A DNA stretch of 64,000 bases, from NCBI RefSeq assembly GCF_007752135.1, contig NZ_CP036298.1:8362501-8426500 (forward strand), in the 5' to 3' direction. Made by a program: the position numbers and the translations under genes. The notes under the pieces were generated by a model, which saw nothing but the letters and a program-made list of their open reading frames with translations, was not told the DNA's origin and did not search any database. How positions within the stretch are numbered: position 1 is the first letter of the stretch; every line of letters starts with the position of its first letter. Shown piece by piece: positions 10,896 to 22,315 of this stretch. This DNA comes from Aureliella helgolandensis. GTDB lineage: Bacteria > Planctomycetota > Planctomycetia > Pirellulales > Pirellulaceae.

Positions 10896-11987
10896 TCAAT
10901 GTGCTGGAACCCTAGTGACCAATGAGGGCTCATGTTGCCCTCCACGGATGTTTGTCAACGGCGATGATGCGGCGCTCGAGTTGCTTCCCAGCAGTGCTCT
11001 ATCCTCCGCAGCATTGCTGTTAGCATAGCTTATTCCTAGCGGAGCGTCCGAACATCCCGGCGTCGCTTTCTGACGTTTGGTTGCACGCGATTGTGCTCGT
11101 AACATGCGGGCTTCCTCGACCTTTCGGTCACGCTCCTCAAGGATCGCTTGCTGCCGTCCTTCGAGCATCGCTTGCGGAGTTACATAGCCTACAGCACTAT
11201 GTAGACGTACGGTGTTGTAATCTTCCACAAACTTGGCTACTCCGCGTTTAGCTTCTTCCAAGCTCAAGGGGCTCAGTGGCCGGATACACTGACTCTTGAT
11301 CGTGCGATGATATCGTTCGATCTTACCATTGCTTTGCGGGTAGTACGGGCTTGTACGCACATGCTTCATGCCACACAATCGCACGAAGTGTTTGAAGTCT
11401 TTGGCGATGAATTGCGGCCCGTTGTCAGAGATGATTCTTGGTCGCGCATCGGGATACCTTTCTCGTGCCTTTTGCAGCACGACCTCGATATCCATCTCTT
11501 CCATCTTCTCACGAATATCCCAGTGCACCACACTACGACTGAAGCCGTCGAGTACGGTCGCCATGAAGTAAAACGTTCCTGCGATGTTCAAGTAAGAGAT
11601 GTCGATATGCCAATGTTCGTGAGCCACAAGAGGTTGCTGAAAGCCAGTCCCCTTTTTTGACTTACGACTATTTCTACGCAATAGGCCCGCGCTGCTGAGT
11701 ACGCGATACACCGTCCCGGCACTGCACGCGACGATGTTTGCGTCAATCATCATGTAGGTCAGCCGCCGATAGCCCTCCAGTGGATGATCGAAATGGAACT
11801 TGAGGATGGCCTGCTTCTCCTCTTCGTTGAGCCAATGGTCACGCGGTACCCAGCCGTTGTGCTCGTAGGTCCGTCCGTAGCTCCGACTCCAGTTAGAGAA
11901 AGTCGATGACCATAATCCGACCCATGTAAGCAGTTGCTTGCTGGTAACATCCGTAGCCGCCGTCCATTTGCGTACGAAGTCGACCAC
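10896..11987 (-). CDS. IS3-family transposase OrfB (DDE integrase core)
   Basis: This is the catalytic half of the IS3 transposase. It has an HTH_21-like N-terminal part (HFDHPLEGYRRLTYMMIDAN) and an rve-type integrase core with the three acidic residues in HWHIDISYLN, IISDNGPQF and NGKIERYHRT. The annotated GTG start at 11987 is only the first start codon in the frame: the frame is open upstream to the A7 tract at 12041-12047, so the protein is most likely made as an OrfAB fusion by -1 frameshifting. The C-terminal tail (after about residue 290) is Arg/Lys and Ser rich and may bind DNA or be unstructured. Confidence 0.9.
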   Translation of the reverse strand: MVDFVRKWTAATDVTSKQLLTWVGLWSSTFSNWSRSYGRTYEHNGWVPRDHWLNEEEKQAILKFHFDHPLEGYRRLTYMMIDANIVACSAGTVYRVLSSAGLLRRNSRKSKKGTGFQQPLVAHEHWHIDISYLNIAGTFYFMATVLDGFSRSVVHWDIREKMEEMDIEVVLQKARERYPDARPRIISDNGPQFIAKDFKHFVRLCGMKHVRTSPYYPQSNGKIERYHRTIKSQCIRPLSPLSLEEAKRGVAKFVEDYNTVRLHSAVGYVTPQAMLEGRQQAILEERDRKVEEARMLRAQSRATKRQKATPGCSDAPLGISYANSNAAEDRALLGSNSSAASSPLTNIRGGQHEPSLVTRVPAH

Positions 11988-12022
11988 CGCATCACGTTGT
12001 TCGTGGGGAACCCAGGTGCGAT

Positions 12023-12343
12023 TTAAGATTCCCCAAGCTCTTTTTTTAGCTCGACGTGCTCCTGCAGTAGTTCGGCAATGACTTCGTTTTTCTGCTGCAG
12101 CTTCGCTTCGAGCTTCTCGATCTTGGCGGCATTGGCATCCTGCTGCATACGCACGTTGGCGGCGTTCTTTTTACGCTCGAATGCGCCTGCTCCGTTTTCA
12201 AACAGCAGCTTTTGCCAATTGTAGAAATTGACGACACTGATCCCGTGCTTGTCACAGACCTCTGAAACGGGCACCTTCTCAATCAAGTGCTCGCGTACAA
12301 TCGCTATCTTCTGTTCTGGCGTTAAAATCTTACGTGTTGACAT
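12023..12343 (-). CDS. IS3-family transposase OrfA (helix-turn-helix)
   Basis: The 106-residue protein has an HTH_Tnp_1 domain (residues ~5-50; LTPEQKIAIVREHLIEK, then VSEVCDKHGISVVNFYNWQK) and a C-terminal heptad-rich segment (AKIEKLEAKLQQKNEVIAEL) that forms the leucine-zipper-like coiled coil used for transposase multimerisation. It recognises the element's ends and, when made alone, usually limits transposition. It is the upstream partner of OrfB and feeds it through the frameshift site at its 3' end. Confidence 0.9.
   Translation of the reverse strand: MSTRKILTPEQKIAIVREHLIEKVPVSEVCDKHGISVVNFYNWQKLLFENGAGAFERKKNAANVRMQQDANAAKIEKLEAKLQQKNEVIAELLQEHVELKKELGES
12041..12047 (-). promoter_or_regulatory. 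programmed -1 ribosomal frameshift site (A7 tract on minus strand)
   Basis: On the minus strand orfA reads CTA AAA AAA GAG CTT GGG and stops 15 bases later. Slipping back one base at the seven-A tract gives AGA GCT TGG GGA ATC TTA and then runs in frame, with no stop, into OrfB (…HEQRDAVVDFVRKW). The A AAA AAG heptamer is the established slippery sequence of IS3-family elements. The fused product is the expected transposase; OrfA alone is usually a repressor. Confidence 0.85.
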
Positions 12344-13699: not shown

Positions 13700-14209
13700 A
13701 TGGACGATGCATCTGAGCTAGAACCACAGAAGCTACCGCCGGTACTTCCGAGAGTCCCAGAGAATCCCTACGCGCCGACCTTAGCGTCCGATCCCATTCC
13801 TGGCTTCAATCGTGGCTACGTCAACCTTCCGCTCGAGTATTGGGGCACACTAGGCGTCTCCTTCCTAGTCCTCCTCGGCCTGACGTTTGCAACGAGCGGA
13901 ATTGCATTTCCTGGGCTTATTTCGATTGTGTTGGTGGCGATACGCGTTCCCCTGTGGCAACTCCGCCACTCGCGTCAACGACCCGCTCAGCCGCAAATCA
14001 ATCCCATTGCACTGATCTTCACCTCTTGGCTCGTGCTGCTAGCCGCCCAATTCTCGACACTCATCGCGTTTTTTGCGATCTGCCTCTCAACCCTGGTCGC
14101 TTCGGAATGGTTGGGCGGAGGCCAAGCCTTCATTTTTGGCTTAAGTGGCTTGGCAAGTTTGATAGTCTTTGTGCTGATCTTCCGACTCTCTTTGCGATTG
14201 CCCTGCTAA
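13700..14209 (+). CDS. small multi-pass membrane protein, unrecognised
   Basis: The 169-residue product has a Pro-rich N-terminal ~40 residues with no signal peptide and then about four hydrophobic segments (WGTLGVSFLVLLGLTF, GLISIVLVAIRVPLW, LIFTSWLVLLAAQFSTLIAF, FIFGLSGLASLIVFVLIF). The basic stretch RHSRQRPAQPQ between the second and third segment should face the cytoplasm. No family is recognised. It precedes the radical SAM gene by 85 bases in the same direction and could share its transcript; a role with those genes is only a guess. Confidence 0.65.
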   Translation: MDDASELEPQKLPPVLPRVPENPYAPTLASDPIPGFNRGYVNLPLEYWGTLGVSFLVLLGLTFATSGIAFPGLISIVLVAIRVPLWQLRHSRQRPAQPQINPIALIFTSWLVLLAAQFSTLIAFFAICLSTLVASEWLGGGQAFIFGLSGLASLIVFVLIFRLSLRLPC

Positions 14210-14294: not shown

Positions 14295-15809
14295 TTGTCC
14301 ACCTCACCGCCACGCGCCGCTGCCCAACATCGGGATTACACATTTCTCGGATTAACGCAGAGCCTTTGTCCGGAGTGTCGGGGCGTCATTCCAGCCAAAA
14401 TCATCGCTCGAGGCGGCCGCGTCTATTTTCGCAAAACCTGTCCCACACACGGCGTGCGTGAAGATTTTGTTTGCAGCGACGTTAGCCGCTACGACCGAAT
14501 GGAAACCAGCCTTCCCGCCAAACTGCCACAGCAAACCTATGCAGACCCCAAACTGGGATGCCCACTCGATTGCGGCTTGTGCACCGAACACGAGCAACAC
14601 ACTTGCATCGCGGTGATCGAGATCAGCGATGGTTGCAATTTGACCTGCCCGATGTGTTACGCCGCCAGCGCACCTGGTAAACAACACAAATCCGTAGAAC
14701 AAGTAAAAGCGGCTATCGATCGGATTGTCGCAGCCGAAGGACATGTTGAAGTGGTGCAACTCTCCGGGGGTGAACCGACACTCCATCCCCATCTATTGGA
14801 GTTGGTCGAATATGCACTCACACAGCCGATCGACTATGTCATGATCAACACCAATGGCATTCGACTGGCGCATGATGCAGATCTGGTCGCCCAGTTGTCG
14901 CAATATCGGGAACGCGTCGAAATCTACTTTCAGTTCGATTCCATCCATGATGACCAAGTGGCTCAGTTGCGGGGGCAAGCTGGTCTACTGGAGATCAAAC
15001 TGAAGGCGCTCGACAGACTCGCTGGAGCGCAGTTGAACGTCACCCTGGTCGCCACTTTACAAGGAGGCGTAAACGATTCAGCCCCGGCAGATTTGCTGGA
15101 GTTCGCTCGCAATCGCCCCCACATTACTGGCCTCAGCTTTCAGCCCGCGACCTACAGTGGACGCCATGTGTTGCCGGAACATCTTGAGCAGAGAATCACT
15201 TTCCCCGATGTCGTGGACACCATCGCCGCCGATTCACGCAACGAATTTAGGGCTAACGACTTTGTTCCGCTGCCCTGTGCGCACCCCAACTGTCATTGGA
15301 TCGGCTTGGCCGTCCGCCACGCGGATGAGTTGCTACCGTTGACGCAATACGTTGACGCCGGAAAGAACCTGGACCTGTTGGCCAATGGCATTAGCTTCAC
15401 GCGAGAACAAACGCACTCCTTGGCCCAGCAACTATTGGCCCGCCTTGCCTGCGGACCTGGCGATTGCTGCAGCCCGAGTCAGGAACCGACTGGGTTGAGT
15501 TTACCTGTGGCAAATGCTTGTTCCACCAACACTCAGGCCTCGAGCTTAGAGCAGTTAAAACCTCAGCAGATTGAGGAATTCCTTCAAAAGCTGATTACCC
15601 GCTCGGCCGGAGCACGCGACTTGCTCCGCATTACCATCACGTCCTTCCTGGACGTCTACAATTTTGATGTGCGGCGCGTCATGAAGTGCTGCACGCATCA
15701 TGTTCTGCCTAGTGGTCACATCATTCCCTTCTGTGCGTACAACGTCTTGTATCGCGACGGCACTGCTCGCCTCCCCGAACTTCGTCAAGCAGACTCCGGC
15801 ACTGTTTAG
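14295..15809 (+). CDS. multi-cluster radical SAM protein resembling tetraether/membrane-spanning lipid synthases (MJ0619-like)
   Basis: The 504-residue protein has the canonical radical SAM motif CxxxCxxC in SDGCNLTCPMCYA (~residues 112-124), then an SGGEPTLHP block. Extra cysteine sites flank it: CPECRGVIPAKI with KTCPTHG near the N-terminus, CPLDCGLCTEHEQHTC just before the core, ACGPGDCC, and a C-terminal CCTHHVLPSGHIIPFCAYN. This arrangement of an N-terminal rubredoxin-like site plus auxiliary Fe-S sites is that of the MJ0619 family, first called a pterin methyltransferase and later shown in archaea to join lipid chains tail to tail (Tes). Assignment to lipid chemistry here is inference. 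The start is a TTG at 14295, chosen because conserved sequence begins shortly after; another start is possible. The Lgt-like gene begins 34 bases downstream. Confidence 0.8.
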   Translation: MSTSPPRAAAQHRDYTFLGLTQSLCPECRGVIPAKIIARGGRVYFRKTCPTHGVREDFVCSDVSRYDRMETSLPAKLPQQTYADPKLGCPLDCGLCTEHEQHTCIAVIEISDGCNLTCPMCYAASAPGKQHKSVEQVKAAIDRIVAAEGHVEVVQLSGGEPTLHPHLLELVEYALTQPIDYVMINTNGIRLAHDADLVAQLSQYRERVEIYFQFDSIHDDQVAQLRGQAGLLEIKLKALDRLAGAQLNVTLVATLQGGVNDSAPADLLEFARNRPHITGLSFQPATYSGRHVLPEHLEQRITFPDVVDTIAADSRNEFRANDFVPLPCAHPNCHWIGLAVRHADELLPLTQYVDAGKNLDLLANGISFTREQTHSLAQQLLARLACGPGDCCSPSQEPTGLSLPVANACSTNTQASSLEQLKPQQIEEFLQKLITRSAGARDLLRITITSFLDVYNFDVRRVMKCCTHHVLPSGHIIPFCAYNVLYRDGTARLPELRQADSGTV

Positions 15810-15843
15810 CGGAGTTCGTTCCTATTCCACAGAGTGTTTCACG

Positions 15844-16587
15844 ATGAGTCCCTGGCGAGCCCTTTACCCGGTGATCATGCTGGTCGGCTTAGGCCTCAGC
15901 TATTGGGCCCTTCGTCGGCGGTATGCGAAGAGCCCGTTGGACGAGGAGCAACGCACCGCGATTGGTTTGGCGGCATTCATGGGAGCCATGCTGGGAGCCA
16001 AAGCACCGTTCCTCCTCTCTGCAGGTACCTTGCTGACAACAAGCTGGACTTGGCTGGGCGACGGCAAAACAATCCTAGGTGGCATTTTTGGCGGTTACCT
16101 TGCCGTAGAGCTCACCAAGTGGTTCATGAAGATCCGCGTGCGAACCGGAGACCACTTTGCCGTACCGGTGGCTATGGCCGTAGCAACGGGACGGTTGGGA
16201 TGCTTCGTTAGCGGTTGTTGTTTCGGCGTGGCGACGCAGTTGCCCTGGGGCATTTCCTTTCCCACTTCCGGCGACCTCCTACCCAGACACCCAACCCAGC
16301 TGTATGAATTCGCCTTCCACGCTACGGCCGTCGCAATACTTTTGGTACTGGAAGGGCGCAACCTGTGGGTGGGCTATCGCCTATCGCTCTATTTGTCGAG
16401 CTATTTGGTTTATCGCTTCCTGACCGAATGGATTCGTCCCGAACCGCATGGCTGGTGGGGTCTAACCGCATACCAGTGGGCCTGCCTGGGATTGCTCGTC
16501 CTACTCCTATATGCCAACTTGCGGCAGCCGTCCTCACAGAGTGCCGGATCGCCAGCGCCGCCTCTCAACGATCCCGACTCCCCTTAG
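15844..16587 (+). CDS. Lgt-like membrane acyltransferase paralogue
   Basis: This 247-residue membrane protein has about seven hydrophobic segments and the fold pattern of prolipoprotein diacylglyceryl transferase (Lgt), which moves diacylglyceryl from phosphatidylglycerol to lipoprotein cysteine. The Lgt signature is altered: the segment normally reading GRxGNFxNxE is here GRLGCFVSGCCFG, followed by LPWGISFP and RHPTQLYEF. That Cys-containing variant marks a separate subgroup of Lgt-like proteins whose substrate is not established. The start ATG at 15844 is preferred over the frame's opening at 15700, which would overlap the radical SAM gene by 110 bases with non-conserved sequence. Tight spacing to the radical SAM gene suggests one operon. 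Confidence 0.8.
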   Translation: MSPWRALYPVIMLVGLGLSYWALRRRYAKSPLDEEQRTAIGLAAFMGAMLGAKAPFLLSAGTLLTTSWTWLGDGKTILGGIFGGYLAVELTKWFMKIRVRTGDHFAVPVAMAVATGRLGCFVSGCCFGVATQLPWGISFPTSGDLLPRHPTQLYEFAFHATAVAILLVLEGRNLWVGYRLSLYLSSYLVYRFLTEWIRPEPHGWWGLTAYQWACLGLLVLLLYANLRQPSSQSAGSPAPPLNDPDSP

Positions 16588-16779: not shown

Positions 16780-19041
16780 CTACAACATGCGAGCAGTGCG
16801 GCGGAGCCACCATTCGCTAGCCAAGATTGTGACAAAGAGCAAAGCCACCCAAGCATGATTCCAAATCGGCTTAGGAGGCAAACTCCCTAAGCGCATTGTC
16901 CGTCCAGGCGGGAGCTCCTCAAACAGCTGCTCTGCTTGCCGCTCCAAATAAAATTTCCCTCGCGATTGCGCGGCGAGCTCCTTCAGAGCGGGCAAATCAA
17001 CCCGTAGATTTGCTTGCTCGCTGGGGGGAGCGGACACGACAAACTCTTCACTTGCCAGCGGTTCGATCCCCGATCCAAGATAGGTCGCGCGATAGTTGCC
17101 GGGCGGTAGTTCTGCTTCGATGATGCGGTAGACTTTGGACGCCGGCTTGATCGCATTCAGCTTCAGGGTCGACTGCTGGCGGTCGGTTGTCTCCAACACC
17201 AGTTCCACCGAATCCGCTTGCTGGGTCTCTCCAGACAATGTCAATTGAAAGCGGATGGGCTGCCCCAGTCGGGCCTGTGTTGGTTCGACCAACAGCTCGG
17301 CATCTGTTCCATCACGCCTCAGTTTTCCACGACTGAGCCAACGCAACATTTGCCCCCAATAGCGTTGATGTACCGCATCACTCCCCTCGAAGCTGGCCCA
17401 CAGGTAGGTTTCATCGGTAGCCTGTAGCGCCGCTCGACCAGCACCTGCAAACTGACTGAGTAACAATGGCTGTGCCGCACCGCTAGAGAGCTCAATCGCC
17501 TCTGCCAAGACTTGCACCCCCGGCTTCAGTCCTCCCACCTGACCAATGGAATGGAGGGGCGGCAAGCGATCCCACAGCTCGAGCGATTGTCGAGGAGATT
17601 CCTCCAGTTGCAGCGGAAGCGATCCCTGGCCGATGGACGTGGGGCTCCAACGGTAGGTGCCCGTTTGCGGAGAGGGATTCAGTCCCGTGCCACCACCTTC
17701 GACCGGCAACAGGCCCGCCAGAGGCCAACCGGCCCATTCCAATGCGGGTGCGCCCTGGCCTTGGATGAAGATGCAACCTGCACCATCGTTGGTTACCGCC
17801 TCATAGATCGCCTGCTGAGAGCTGCGAGAAATCAAGCTCGGATCACACGGTCCAAAGATGAACACATCGTAGTTGTCCAGAGTTGCTTGGTCGCTCGGAA
17901 CCAATCGAATGGCAGATGCATCTTGCTGCACATAACTCGCATCCGCTTCTTGCAGCACAGAGCTCAACTCAAAACTAGCGGACTGTTGGTCACTCTGTTC
18001 CGTCGAGCGCTCCAGTAGGTTTTTCAGGAATCGAAATTCGTAGCTGGGTGTCTGAAATACCAGCAAAGCTCGAATCACTTTATCTTGAACATTGACTTCA
18101 AAACTTTGGACATTGTTGTCAAGCTCGCTTTCATCTTCCAGCGCCGAAGCCTCAACCATGAGACTCATGATTCCCGGTTGCTGAGGTACGAAGCTGAGGC
18201 GAACACTCTGTTGATTGCGCGTAGCAGACCATTCGACTTGCGACTCATCCAGTACGCGACCATTACCCTTATCACGCAATCGCAGAGTCGTGACCGCCTG
18301 CTGAATATCGGTCGCTATTACAGACAATTCGACAACGACTTGATCTCCCAGGTAGACATCCCGTTCCACCAAGACGTCTGCCACGCGAAGATCGGGGCGG
18401 GCTACATCGCGTCCGATGGCCACTACGAAAACGGGCAGGGCTGCATGCCGCGCCAGTTGTGCCGCATCTGCCAACGATCGTCCACTAGTGTTGATGCCAT
18501 CGGACAGAAAGACGATCGCGGCGGTTCCCGTACCTACCTGCCGTTCAATCACTTCACCGAGCGCATCTCCCAGATGGCTGTGCGCGCCGTCTGCAGCCAC
18601 TTGCTCCCGCAAGCCCTGCGGGTCCGTCCAGCTCGCCGTGATCGGTTTGCTGTGTTCAGCCGCAACGATCCAGCGTGTCTGATACTGGCTCGACAACTCG
18701 CGCCGTTGTCGTCCGCTCACTCCACTCAAAATATCGAGTCCGCGGTCCAGCCGAGAAATGGCCTCTCGCCCCTGCTCTACATCCTGGGTCCCCATACTCG
18801 TTGAGTGGTCAAGCACGACGATCAGTTCAGGACGCTCGCTCGTAAATCGCAGCCAATTCCATCCGCCTAGCATCCATACAACGAGAGCCAGCAGGCTGAG
18901 ACGCAGGGTGGCCAGAACGACACGCTTCGTCCGACTTGCCCTGCCGCGTTCGCTGCTGTAAATCCAGCCAACGAAGGCCAGGCCGAGCAGGAGCAAAACA
19001 ATGGCGGCCCACAAGGGCAACGGTCGGGTCGCCTGCAGCAT
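16780..19041 (-). CDS. VWA-domain membrane protein with glutamine-amidotransferase-like region
   Basis: This is the last gene of the MoxR-DUF58-VWA operon. Two N-terminal transmembrane segments (LWAAIVLLLLGLAFVGWI and VVLATLRLSLLALVVWMLGGW) precede a von Willebrand A domain with a MIDAS motif (VVLDHSTSMG, DxSxS), Ig-like segments, and a region (around residues 380-560) with the layout of a class I glutamine amidotransferase-like fold (DNYDVFIFGPCDPS, EWAGWPLAGLLPVEGG). A final hydrophobic segment (IWNHAWVALLFVTILASEWWL) anchors the C-terminus. The start is uncertain: ATG 19041 leaves a 32-base gap to the preceding stop, while a GTG at 19098 overlaps it by 25 bases; neither has a strong ribosome binding site. 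It probably acts in a metal-dependent envelope complex with the other operon products. Confidence 0.8.
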   Translation of the reverse strand: MLQATRPLPLWAAIVLLLLGLAFVGWIYSSERGRASRTKRVVLATLRLSLLALVVWMLGGWNWLRFTSERPELIVVLDHSTSMGTQDVEQGREAISRLDRGLDILSGVSGRQRRELSSQYQTRWIVAAEHSKPITASWTDPQGLREQVAADGAHSHLGDALGEVIERQVGTGTAAIVFLSDGINTSGRSLADAAQLARHAALPVFVVAIGRDVARPDLRVADVLVERDVYLGDQVVVELSVIATDIQQAVTTLRLRDKGNGRVLDESQVEWSATRNQQSVRLSFVPQQPGIMSLMVEASALEDESELDNNVQSFEVNVQDKVIRALLVFQTPSYEFRFLKNLLERSTEQSDQQSASFELSSVLQEADASYVQQDASAIRLVPSDQATLDNYDVFIFGPCDPSLISRSSQQAIYEAVTNDGAGCIFIQGQGAPALEWAGWPLAGLLPVEGGGTGLNPSPQTGTYRWSPTSIGQGSLPLQLEESPRQSLELWDRLPPLHSIGQVGGLKPGVQVLAEAIELSSGAAQPLLLSQFAGAGRAALQATDETYLWASFEGSDAVHQRYWGQMLRWLSRGKLRRDGTDAELLVEPTQARLGQPIRFQLTLSGETQQADSVELVLETTDRQQSTLKLNAIKPASKVYRIIEAELPPGNYRATYLGSGIEPLASEEFVVSAPPSEQANLRVDLPALKELAAQSRGKFYLERQAEQLFEELPPGRTMRLGSLPPKPIWNHAWVALLFVTILASEWWLRRTARML

Positions 19042-19073
19042 CGTGTCGATATGATTGTCTGCTGATAATTCGT

Positions 19074-21401
19074 TCAAGCCACGCGTCTCCCGAACCACCA
19101 GGCAAGGGTCGATTCAGCAATCAACAGTGCCACCAGCCCATACAGCAAAACTTGGGAGATTCGATCTGCTTGAGCCGCTGATACGAGAGGTCGTGCTGAT
19201 TCAACCGCTAATTTTCGAGCCAGGGTATCCGGTGCATCACCAGCGAGCTTTCGAGCGGACTGCGGTAGCTGGCTGGGATTCAGCGATTGTAGTGCGCTCT
19301 CTGCCGGATCGATATTGACTGCATAGGGTTGCTCCTGCCCTGCCCCACTGCGCACCAGATAGACACCGCGGTGCTGCGTTCGAGGAAACCGCCACTTCAG
19401 CTCACCCTGCGCGTCGGCTTGCCCAACAGCCAAGGTCTCCTGCGTGCCATCGGGGCGCTGCACGCTAACCTGCGGAGCCTCTGCGGTGCGTCGCGTTGTC
19501 CCGCGGATCGCCTGACCCGCGAAAATATTTTTATCCTCAAAATCATGCTCTAGCGATGCAATGACCATCTGCTGCATCAAAGGAACAAAACTAGGCCAGG
19601 TTGCCATGGCATTCCAGGTAGCATTCGCGCTGGTCGAGTTATCCGTCGAGGCAAAGAGACCTCTCGCGGCACCCGACTGCGGAGCTGACAACAGACTCAC
19701 GACCCATCCCGCGCCAACTCGGCGGCGCGTGATCAGAGGCTGCCCACTGGTGGTTGCTAAGTCGACGGCCAGTGGAGCTCTTTCGATTGCGTTTTCTAGG
19801 TTTGTCGTCCCCTCGCTATCGCGATTAGCAGCTTCGTTGCCTGTTTGCAAAGAGCGATCTATTTTCCAAAAGCGAAAAATGGGAGTACTCAACAACCCGG
19901 CGTCGGGAAATGCTTGAAAGGGTTGCAGGATAGGGCTCTGGTAGTCCAGGGGGTCAAGCTCCCAAAGCTCTTCGGTCGAGGGTTCTATCAACTGGAAACC
20001 CGACAATGGCAGTCCATCTGCGCTACTCACATTCCAGGCCGAGGGATTTGCATTGCGCCCCATCAGCAAGACGACTCCCCCCCCTGCCGCAGCAAACGAA
20101 TCCAATCGCAATTGTTCGGAGCGTGTTAGGCCGGGAAGGTCAACTAGCACGACTGCATTCCAATTGGTGAGATCTGCAGTGCGTAGTTCGAGCTGCGACA
20201 TTACCGCTAATGTCTGCCTGGGCCCTCCTCTTTCATCGGAACGCGTCTGTGGCGGTCGAAGTGCCAATGGTACCGTCCGCGCGTCGGCGTCGCGTCCCTG
20301 GCTAGCTGATGGCACGACGACCAGAATCCGCTCCTGTTCAACCACCTCCAGCACACAGGAGCGCGTGTCGTCCGACACCAGTCGGTCGGCTGGAATGGAT
20401 GCCTCAATCACTGCTGGGCCTGCGATGGACAGTGTGGTGGAAAGATGTACCGCATACCGCTGAAAGGGCTGCAGGTCGATATAGGTGGAGGCCATTGTTT
20501 GGCCGTTTGCCTTCAGTTGCACCGGGAGCTGACTGACGGGCGCGTCTGCGAAGTTCTCCAGCTCGATGACCATATCGACTTGGCTTCCTACGACCACATG
20601 GGATTGAGAGGGCTGCAGAGAGGTCACCGCAACATTGGCAACTGGCCCTTCGGCGACCGAATGGATGCTGAGGCTGGCTGCCTCCTGCAGGCGTTTCAGG
20701 GGAACCGCCGCATCGCCATCCACGGCAGCCAACCAGCTATTGCGGCCCAGATCAGAATAGATCGCTACGTGAATGTCTTGAGGTAGCGTCGATGACAGCT
20801 CGACCTCCGCTGCAATGCTTTCAATCCACTGCAGACCACTGCTGAGATTCAAGGCGGTATCGAATAACTCTAACCGCCGCAGTTCGGACAGCATGCTGGA
20901 TTTATCAAAGGTTGGCCGAGAGATGATCGCACGTGACGGGTTCGCCAATTGCACCAGCGCGTAAGCGTCGCCAGTATTCGTACTGGCAATTAAATCAAGG
21001 GCCTGTTGTTTGGCCAGCTCAAACCGGGAAACATCCTGGGGTTGATAGCCCATGGAGGCGGAGGCATCGATGGCAACGATCCACAATCGTGGTAACTCTG
21101 ACTCGGGAATTCCTTGAGCATCGGTGACATTGAAAAACGGGCGTGCCAAGGCGATCGCTAATACGATTGGGATTAGAGTGCGCAGCAGCAACAACAGCAG
21201 CTGTTCGATGCGTAGGCGGCGTGACTCCTGTTCGATGACCTGCCGCAGCAACTGCATGGCTGCCCAGGGCGCGACTCTCTGCTGCTTGCGGTTGAGCAAA
21301 TGCAGGATAATCGGAATGGCTGCCGCCGCCGTCCACAGGAGCATCCAACCGCTGGCGAAGCCGGAAACCGCTAGAGGTCCCAAGGTAAAAGACAACGGCA
21401 C
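19074..21401 (-). CDS. BatA-like aerotolerance protein with VWA domain
   Basis: The N-terminus carries the BatA/aerotolerance membrane domain (SGWMLLWTAAAAIPIILHLL, then NRKQQRVAPWAAMQLL and a second hydrophobic segment LLLLLLRTLIPIVLAIALA). A VWA domain follows with the MIDAS motif VAIDASASMGYQ, then long Ig-like/amidotransferase-like stretches and a C-terminal transmembrane segment (VLLYGLVALLIAESTLAWWFG). Start GTG 21401 is chosen because GGAGGAG (21408-21414) sits six bases upstream; the frame extends to a TTG at 21449 without support. It begins two bases after the DUF58 stop. Such proteins are thought to present VWA surfaces to substrates remodelled by the MoxR ATPase. Confidence 0.85.
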   Translation of the reverse strand: MPLSFTLGPLAVSGFASGWMLLWTAAAAIPIILHLLNRKQQRVAPWAAMQLLRQVIEQESRRLRIEQLLLLLLRTLIPIVLAIALARPFFNVTDAQGIPESELPRLWIVAIDASASMGYQPQDVSRFELAKQQALDLIASTNTGDAYALVQLANPSRAIISRPTFDKSSMLSELRRLELFDTALNLSSGLQWIESIAAEVELSSTLPQDIHVAIYSDLGRNSWLAAVDGDAAVPLKRLQEAASLSIHSVAEGPVANVAVTSLQPSQSHVVVGSQVDMVIELENFADAPVSQLPVQLKANGQTMASTYIDLQPFQRYAVHLSTTLSIAGPAVIEASIPADRLVSDDTRSCVLEVVEQERILVVVPSASQGRDADARTVPLALRPPQTRSDERGGPRQTLAVMSQLELRTADLTNWNAVVLVDLPGLTRSEQLRLDSFAAAGGGVVLLMGRNANPSAWNVSSADGLPLSGFQLIEPSTEELWELDPLDYQSPILQPFQAFPDAGLLSTPIFRFWKIDRSLQTGNEAANRDSEGTTNLENAIERAPLAVDLATTSGQPLITRRRVGAGWVVSLLSAPQSGAARGLFASTDNSTSANATWNAMATWPSFVPLMQQMVIASLEHDFEDKNIFAGQAIRGTTRRTAEAPQVSVQRPDGTQETLAVGQADAQGELKWRFPRTQHRGVYLVRSGAGQEQPYAVNIDPAESALQSLNPSQLPQSARKLAGDAPDTLARKLAVESARPLVSAAQADRISQVLLYGLVALLIAESTLAWWFGRRVA

Positions 21402-21403
21402 GC

Positions 21404-22315
21404 TCAGCTCCTCCGCAATTGTCGACTGGACAAGATATTCGGCAAGCAAACCGCCAAAGACTCATCGGTCTGCACGCGGAAGTAGTCGATATCCAGTTGT
21501 CGGCAGCCGCTTTCCAATGCTTGGCAGTAAGCGGCGATTGCCTTGCGATAGGCTCCTCCAATGAGGAGAGGATCGGTTACCACCTGAGACGCATCTTCCA
21601 TTCCTTCGAAACGCGAGAGTTGGTCAAAGGGAAATTGCAGTTCGTCCGCATCGAGGATTTGGATCACCAAAACATCATGCCGAGCGTAGCGTGCCAGCCG
21701 CAGCGCACTGAGCAGTGCCTCGCGATCGTCGAGTAGATCGCTAAGCAGGATCATCAATCCAGGTTTAGTCGCTCGCTGAACAGTCTGTTGAATCGTCTCG
21801 GAGATTTCTGTGCGTCGATTGTGCTTCCCAGACTCCAACACTCGGACGATATCGTCGAACTGCACCGGACTGCTGCTCGGTGGCAACCAGTTGTCGATGC
21901 CATCCGAGAAGGTAATGAGACCTGCACTATCTTGTTGCGACACCACCAAATAGGCTAAGACACACGCGATCAACTGGGCAGTCTCAACCTTACTCAGGCT
22001 ACTTTGCTGACCGCGATAGAGCATGCTCTCGCTTTGGTCCAACATTAAGTAGCAGGTTAGATTCGTCTCATCTTCGTACTGCTTCAGGTAATGTTTGTCG
22101 CTGCGCGCGTAGACTTTCCAATCGACTTGCCGCAAGTCATCTCCAGGAACGTACTCGCGATGCTGGGCGAATTCGATCGAGTGCCCGCGCAGCGGACTGC
22201 GATGCATCCCGGCGACCAGCCCTTCGATTAAAGTGCGAGCCCGGAGTCCCAGCGGTCGAACGGCTGCTAAAACTTTAGGATCGAAGTACTTTTGCGATGC
22301 GTTCAAGACTCTCAC
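21404..22315 (-). CDS. DUF58 protein (VWA-like MoxR partner)
   Basis: The 303-residue protein shows the DUF58 core: GRSIEFAQHREYVPGDDLRQ-like block (SIEFAQHREYVPGDDLRQVD), WKVYARSDKHYLKQYEDE and a VWA-like segment LMLDQSESMLYRG. DUF58 proteins occur with MoxR AAA+ ATPases and are thought to be their substrate adaptors. There is no membrane segment, so it is cytosolic. The GTG start at 22315 overlaps the MoxR gene by 41 bases; a TTG three codons later is an alternative. The stop lies two bases before the BatA-like start. Confidence 0.9.
   Translation of the reverse strand: MRVLNASQKYFDPKVLAAVRPLGLRARTLIEGLVAGMHRSPLRGHSIEFAQHREYVPGDDLRQVDWKVYARSDKHYLKQYEDETNLTCYLMLDQSESMLYRGQQSSLSKVETAQLIACVLAYLVVSQQDSAGLITFSDGIDNWLPPSSSPVQFDDIVRVLESGKHNRRTEISETIQQTVQRATKPGLMILLSDLLDDREALLSALRLARYARHDVLVIQILDADELQFPFDQLSRFEGMEDASQVVTDPLLIGGAYRKAIAAYCQALESGCRQLDIDYFRVQTDESLAVCLPNILSSRQLRRS
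21408..21414 (-). promoter_or_regulatory. Shine-Dalgarno sequence deciding the BatA-like start
   Basis: GGAGGAG on the minus strand lies six bases before GTG 21401 and inside the last codons of the DUF58 gene. It favours that GTG over the TTG at 21449 and implies translational coupling between the two genes. Confidence 0.65.

Follow-up and report, generated by a model that had tools for sequence, protein, structure and literature searches.

The 64,000-nucleotide stretch of the Aureliella helgolandensis genome analysed here (the window; contig NZ_CP036298.1, positions 8,362,501 to 8,426,500, from an 8.44 Mb genome in a single contig) carries a radical S-adenosylmethionine (SAM) gene of the superfamily of tetraether synthase (Tes), which links archaeal lipids end to end, directly followed by a gene for a paralogue of Lgt, the prolipoprotein diacylglyceryl transferase that attaches lipids to proteins. 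This adjacency is not a product of chance, and the radical SAM enzyme and the Lgt paralogue behave as one functional unit. The conserved pair suggests some modification of lipids and not tetraether synthesis itself, and we hold with moderate confidence that it constitutes a dedicated two-enzyme module remodelling a membrane glycerolipid. Both open reading frames (ORFs) lie on the forward strand and are separated by 34 bases, as a preliminary description of this DNA had stated:

14295..15809, + strand: radical SAM gene, 504 amino acids, TTG start (protein P0001); Lgt-linked subfamily of the MJ0619/Tes/TrsS superfamily
15844..16587, + strand: Lgt paralogue gene, 247 amino acids, ATG start (protein P0002); radical-SAM-linked Lgt clade

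P0002 is read from the ATG at 15844; the ORF list opens the same frame earlier, at 15700.

A same-strand Lgt-like gene was detected at 106 of 141 radical SAM loci, and at 96 of them it lies within 300 bases. These loci comprise a first set, made up of the window and 60 fetched planctomycete regions (61 loci, 41 with an Lgt-like gene, 39 within 300 bases), named planctomycetes (37 loci, 25 and 23, respectively) and named loci from other phyla (43 loci, 40 and 34). The first set leaves out only one of the 69 matches, unlinked relatives included, from a scan of 392 genomes of the window's phylum with P0001 alone. The 80 named-genome loci are the best 80 of 560 matches to a query (A1) whose 16 sequences all came from linked loci, a choice that favours sequences of that kind, and the search for neighbours with P0002 or a linked-Lgt profile likewise favours the linked type. 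Linked loci occur in five phyla (Planctomycetota, Bacteroidota, Bacillota, Chloroflexota and Pseudomonadota), and two cases outside the 141-locus count, a Nonomuraea record (Actinomycetota) and a Persicobacter plasmid (Bacteroidota), carry the pair too. The order is radical SAM then Lgt in all 37 window-type pairs, and Lgt then radical SAM in 59 of the 69 others. The preliminary description had allowed that the radical SAM gene might stand beside Lgt-like genes at random across genomes; instead, the neighbourhood is conserved and the pairing recurs far beyond chance.

Genome content and phylogeny agree with this picture. The radical SAM gene is patchily distributed, occurring in 56 of the 392 genomes of the window's phylum (E <= 1e-40) and in 20 of 247 genomes of the phylum of Flavobacterium (E <= 1e-90). 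Among the 45 genomes with a P0002 match (E <= 1e-18), 40 also have a radical SAM match, as against 56 of 392 overall (counted by hand; hypergeometric probability 5e-36, uncorrected for kinship). Distances in the radical SAM and Lgt trees are correlated over 64 loci (Mantel r 0.69, with 0 of 2000 permutations as high), a correlation to which shared species history contributes.

P0002 is a member of the Lgt family by both sequence and fold. It matches Pfam LGT (PF01790) with 108 bits against a cut-off of 24.9, and stays below the cut-offs of its two best NCBIfam Lgt models (94.8 against 334 and 54.9 against 118.9). Its predicted structure, with a mean predicted local distance difference test score (pLDDT) of 91 from 46 sequences, has E. 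coli Lgt (5azb) as its sole PDB match at E <= 0.001. It shares with that enzyme the position of the signature motif and the equivalents of Arg143, Tyr235, Arg239 and Glu243, located as follows:

16066..16077, + strand: K75-T-I-L78, the diagnostic Lys and a Leu at the place of the catalytic His103
16189..16227, + strand: Lgt signature motif GRLGCFVSGCCFG, P0002 residues 116-128, with R117 equivalent to E. coli R143
16402..16428, + strand: Y187, R191 and E195, equivalent to E. coli Y235, R239 and E243

The linked Lgts differ from other Lgts, including that of E. coli, in phylogeny, in being an extra copy and around one site. In a 102-row Lgt tree, all 65 linked rows together with L195, L197 and L205 form a branch (99*) apart from 34 other Lgts, including that of E. 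coli; L205 comes from genome G233, in which the radical SAM gene lies on a different, 3.3 kb contig. This tree and that of the radical SAM proteins are quick trees with midpoint roots, and their support is from the Shimodaira-Hasegawa-like approximate likelihood ratio test only. The Lgt tree includes 22 named loci with an Lgt-like gene, omitting L091 and L231-L243 (repeats of linked copies); L199, with a radical SAM fragment at a contig end, was labelled as linked by hand, and the first 150 residues of L192 were cut. At least two LGT genes are present in 15 of 15 named pair-bearing genomes, making the linked Lgt an extra copy. The window genome likewise has at least two, a lower bound because the PF01790 search misses the B. 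subtilis control and may have passed over Lgt copies; it also contains LspA, and its other Lgt is therefore probably the lipoprotein enzyme.

The distinguishing site is that of His103, the catalytic residue of E. coli Lgt within H103-G-G-L (PMC8048626, PMC8689077). His is found there in 0 of the 65 linked rows, which have an aliphatic residue or Thr (Leu78 in P0002), whereas His or Tyr occupies the position in 31 of 37 other Lgts. Three residues earlier, 63 of the 65 linked rows have Lys (54) or Arg (9), compared with Lys in 3 of the 37 others. The equivalents of Arg143, Tyr235 and Arg239 are kept in 65, 65 and 64 of the 65 linked Lgts, respectively (the printed index of this tally is the E. 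coli number plus one).

The preliminary description had singled out a different feature, a Cys variant of the GRxGN pattern, as the mark of a changed function, and this marker (GRLGC...GCC) was rejected. Asn146 of the signature is Cys120 in P0002, but Cys is also present there in 24 of the 37 other Lgts, so that Cys120 does not discriminate; the other Lgt of the window genome (GRVGCLLHGCCFGG) and those of four planctomycetes share the variant as GRxGC...GCC. The motif of the other copy reads GRIGC in Niabella, GRWGN in four Bacillota genomes, GRIAN in Asticcacaulis and GRIGN in one Ktedonosporobacter copy, and the pattern was not matched in five Lgts of the remaining Bacteroidota genomes or in the second Ktedonosporobacter Lgt.

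The Pfam matches of the radical SAM protein are Radical_SAM (88 bits) and Zn_ribbon_HMPTM (67 bits). Its best NCBIfam match, over nearly the full length, is TrsS (NF045646; 336 bits, cut-off 490), which is named as a radical SAM (seleno)protein in a table of PMC13188914, and the second is Tes (NF045702; 286 bits, curated cut-off 450), with neither cut-off reached. A match to NF045703 (intein-containing Tes) was set aside as homology only, and a PHROGs search returned just weak general radical SAM matches. P0001 matches 7tol (MJ0619) at E 3.7e-65, and a one-to-one BLASTP comparison with partial MJ0619 gives 31% identity (E 2e-72). Among the matches listed, the closest named one, at 72% identity, is from a Planctomycetales metagenome-assembled genome (MAG), and next come other planctomycetes, a Pirellula MAG among them. 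The predicted structure (mean pLDDT 85.3, 45-sequence alignment) has GDGT-MAS, the Tes of 7tol, as its best Foldseek match in the PDB (E 5.7e-40, template modelling score 0.76/0.78). On alignment to MJ0619 the domain order is that of Tes, and the rubredoxin, N-terminal cluster and radical SAM motifs are spaced as in Tes (PMC9433317), which bears out the MJ0619/Tes-type auxiliary cysteine sites of the preliminary description:

14367..14450, + strand: rubredoxin-type site C25-x2-C28-x20-C49-x2-H52 (alignment to MJ0619; spacing as given in PMC9433317)
14559..14600, + strand: N-terminal auxiliary cluster site C89-x3-C93-x2-C96 with H99 (and H102) (alignment to MJ0619)
14634..14657, + strand: radical SAM cluster motif C114-x3-C118-x2-C121 (Pfam and alignment to MJ0619)
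15291..15293, + strand: C333, predicted ligand of the C-terminal cluster and one of three jointly lost Cys
15450..15470, + strand: Cys-rich linker CGPGDCC, residues 386-392, in a part of low model confidence
15687..15734, + strand: C465, C466, H468, H469 and C480, region of the C-terminal auxiliary cluster (alignment to MJ0619)

At the SAM site, Arg210, Gln268 and Arg275 of MJ0619 are kept, and Ser271 is replaced by Thr. Met439 and Tyr459, reported in PMC9433317 as fully conserved across 1000 archaeal Tes homologues, align with Thr449 (N-terminal to the 15687..15734 stretch) and His469 of P0001; the protein of locus L096 has Phe at the Tyr459 position. According to the same source the Tes variants M439A, Y459F and Y459L retain activity (PMC9433317), so the Thr and His of P0001 do not exclude Tes chemistry. 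The Cys-rich linker is present, by pattern, in 16 of the 22 rows of the window clade. At one further locus (L136:9141-9143, on the same contig as L054, genome G115), the radical SAM gene has an in-frame TGA where relatives have a linker Cys; the frame continues past it with the C-terminal motifs, the genome has a selenocysteine tRNA (tRNA-Sec; 71.9 bits, above cut-off), and it is possible that this TGA encodes selenocysteine.

A 95-row radical SAM tree places P0001 outside the Tes branch. MJ0619, L096 and L103 form a branch of their own (99*), and a 70-row group that excludes these three unites all 64 Lgt-linked rows with six unlinked ones (support 91, unstarred). The tree used 24 of the 80 named loci and omitted the fragment of L091 and a truncated ORF of L093; none of the 24 is one of the 12 named planctomycete loci without an Lgt neighbour, which by identity would fall inside the linked group, and the clustering by label is therefore flattered. 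When the 22 rows of the window clade were held together with the three Tes-clade rows, the approximately unbiased (AU) test did not reject the arrangement (p 0.323), so that the window clade may be sister to Tes, although P0001 is not inside the Tes branch. Neither TrsS nor Mss sequences are among the tree rows. Mss is described as the membrane-spanning lipid synthase that couples fatty acids into bacterial membrane-spanning lipids (PMC11868695).

Further proteins were compared with the family profiles. Of ten in a first check (eight Lgt-linked, two unlinked), nine match Tes and TrsS, all below the cut-offs (highest TrsS score 381.5 against 490), and the linked but divergent L083 has no match to either at the limit used. 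In a second check of ten more (nine unlinked, one linked), only L096 exceeds the Tes cut-off, with 577 bits; this protein (L096:8732-10360) is encoded in a 2.0 Mb genome of the window's phylum. The stretches surrounding L096 and L103, the two Tes-clade loci observed, contain no Lgt-like gene. Separately, tandem divergent radical SAM genes of the MJ0619 family, with no Lgt-like neighbour, were observed at L062, L064 and L072 in genomes of the planctomycete phylum. The label "tetraether-synthase-like" in the preliminary description stands at the level of the superfamily and fold and fails at the level of the clade, where P0001 lies outside Tes on a tree that holds no Mss sequence.

Members of the family differ at the C-terminal cluster. 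P0001 retains C333, C465 and C480, and 25 of 31 distant unlinked rows, MJ0619, L096 and L103 being three of the 25, have Cys at every one of these positions. In a set of 46 near relatives all three are kept in 31, none in 12 and C480 alone in 3; for 70 distant linked rows the figures are 8 with all three, 20 with C333 alone and 42 with none. At least two of the three are thus absent from 77 of the 116 linked or near radical SAM proteins, a tally that omits L091, L093, L141, L136 and L054 and in which the rows are related and so are not independent events. Because the three are lost jointly, we infer that they are one ligand set of the C-terminal cluster. The Lgt partner is present in 62 of the 62 distant linked and 13 of the 15 near members that lack at least two of these Cys. 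Since the Cys-less lineages keep their Lgt partner, the step shared across the family cannot depend on the C-terminal cluster.

These observations bear on an unlikely reading, in which the radical SAM enzyme would perform Tes-like carbon-carbon coupling, joining two acyl or alkyl chain ends into a membrane-spanning lipid, with the Lgt paralogue supplying or trimming the glycerolipid. The fold and cofactor spacing shared with MJ0619, the three C-terminal Cys kept in the window copy, the sister position to Tes that the AU test did not reject and the activity of the Tes variants at Met439 and Tyr459 are all consistent with it. However, at least two of the Cys are absent from 62 of 70 distant linked members and from 15 of 46 near relatives, and nearly all of these have an Lgt partner; P0001 scores below the Tes cut-off, and the two Tes-clade loci have no Lgt-like gene in the stretches around them.

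The favoured reading is the two-enzyme glycerolipid module. The folds of both proteins have been shown to bind phospholipid in their best-studied relatives, which makes a lipid target likely; the lipid idea of the preliminary description is upheld in this reading, and its tetraether label is not. The Lgt paralogue would bind a phosphatidylglycerol-type lipid in the inner membrane through Arg117, Tyr187, Arg191 and Glu195 and, having no catalytic His but a Lys three residues before that position, may pass the diacylglyceryl group to an acceptor other than a lipobox Cys. The cytosolic radical SAM enzyme would abstract a hydrogen from the same lipid, before or after transfer, and modify its chain or head. 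As most of the linked members examined lack at least two predicted Cys ligands, the step common to the family would be independent of the C-terminal Fe-S cluster; a sulfur-dependent or carbon-carbon coupling step stays possible in the window copy, as its C-terminal Cys are kept. A wider proposal, which we advance tentatively and regard as possible rather than probable, is that the pair makes a class of lipids widespread in bacteria, in which the Lgt paralogue would transfer diacylglyceryl to a non-protein acceptor and Tes-superfamily radical chemistry would act on the same lipid, and that a share of the counted bacterial Tes homologues belongs here and not to tetraether synthesis.

Several observations weigh against the two-enzyme module. 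The Lgt-like gene is absent from the fetched stretch at 12 of the 37 named planctomycete loci and at 3 of the 43 other loci. More than 2 kb of downstream sequence is available at 10 of the 11 measured loci among those 12, and so Lgt is truly not adjacent there, the search having covered the fetched stretches and not the rest of those genomes. The linked pairs L060, L073, L080 and L088 are placed differently in the two trees, and look as if one partner had been exchanged. His103 is also absent from 7 of 7 other planctomycete Lgts examined (Tyr in 6, Ile in 1), so that its loss alone is no proof of altered chemistry. The Lgt paralogue might also serve as a scaffold that binds lipid. Finally, no third gene of comparable conservation was found near the pair among ORFs of at least 90 amino acids, and none fixes the acceptor: in clusters of such ORFs at the 43 loci of other phyla the pair reaches 40 and 37 loci and the next largest cluster 8, and at 47 window-type loci the largest clusters on the same strand after the pair reach 9.

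The scarcity of third genes also bears on a distinctly unlikely alternative, maturation of a lipoprotein or peptide, in which a dedicated peptide would receive a lipid on a Cys from the Lgt paralogue and a further modification from the radical SAM protein. Peptides are substrates of Lgt and of many radical SAM proteins, and the window genome has LspA; against this, no recurring precursor-like gene was found among ORFs of at least 90 amino acids, a size limit at which a short precursor could be missed, and the best fold match of P0001 is a lipid enzyme, with the maturase SkfB only third (E 3.9e-11). It is improbable that the auxiliary cluster inserts sulfur into, or thiolates, a lipid whose diacylglyceryl group the Lgt paralogue moves to a thiol: during coupling, Tes passes through a lipid-sulfur bond formed with the C-terminal cluster (PMC9433317), and the window copy has the cluster Cys and a Cys-rich linker, but most of the linked members examined lack two or three of those Cys. 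Equally doubtful is a role in which the Lgt paralogue would only anchor the radical SAM enzyme to the membrane or present lipid to it as a scaffold, a role which the uniform loss of His103 from the linked rows would suit and the near-invariant Arg143, Tyr235 and Arg239 equivalents argue against.

The small upstream membrane protein of the preliminary description does exist as an ORF:

13700-14209: membrane protein ORF, 169 amino acids

It has no Pfam or NCBIfam family match and only three weak relatives (E 5e-5 to 5e-4) among the window and the 60 fetched planctomycete regions, and it was dropped as a third component because it is poorly conserved. Further upstream, on the - strand, an IS3-like insertion element of two ORFs, with an integrase core and a transposase helix-turn-helix, occupies window positions 10896-12343; directly downstream of the pair, at 16780-22315, lie three - strand genes with VWA, BatA and DUF58 domains. 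In Paenibacillus and Brevibacillus, the radical SAM gene is succeeded by a gene for a small membrane protein, which bears an LLNAAC motif at five loci (L151:9388-9726, L159, L167, L172 and L179) and whose cluster covers 6 of the 43 loci; an ORF resembling it (L057:10187-10567) belongs to a cluster of four planctomycete loci. Unlinked relatives of the radical SAM protein on Mycolicibacterium and haloarchaeal plasmids (L189 and L191) lie directly before a methyltransferase gene and not near an Lgt.

In searches of an open-access library we found no report of the radical SAM-Lgt pair. The view of the preliminary description that such a system is undescribed for this group does not extend to the radical SAM protein by itself, because Tes homologues in Planctomycetota have already been published, with a count of 110 of 684 planctomycete MAGs (PMC11868695). 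Another survey collected 456 bacterial Tes homologues with BLASTP thresholds of E < 1e-50 and > 20% identity (PMC8941075). Such surveys assume that bacteria with a Tes homologue may produce branched tetraethers, on which climate proxies are based. Given its identity and E value against partial MJ0619, P0001 would probably pass thresholds of this kind although its branch is Lgt-linked and lies outside the Tes clade, and the presence of an Lgt neighbour, together with the Cys pattern, could be used to sort such counts. If the module does make a new lipid, this lipid would be shared with culturable genera such as Flavobacterium, Paenibacillus and Hymenobacter, in which the pair also occurs, and the proposal is hence open to direct test.

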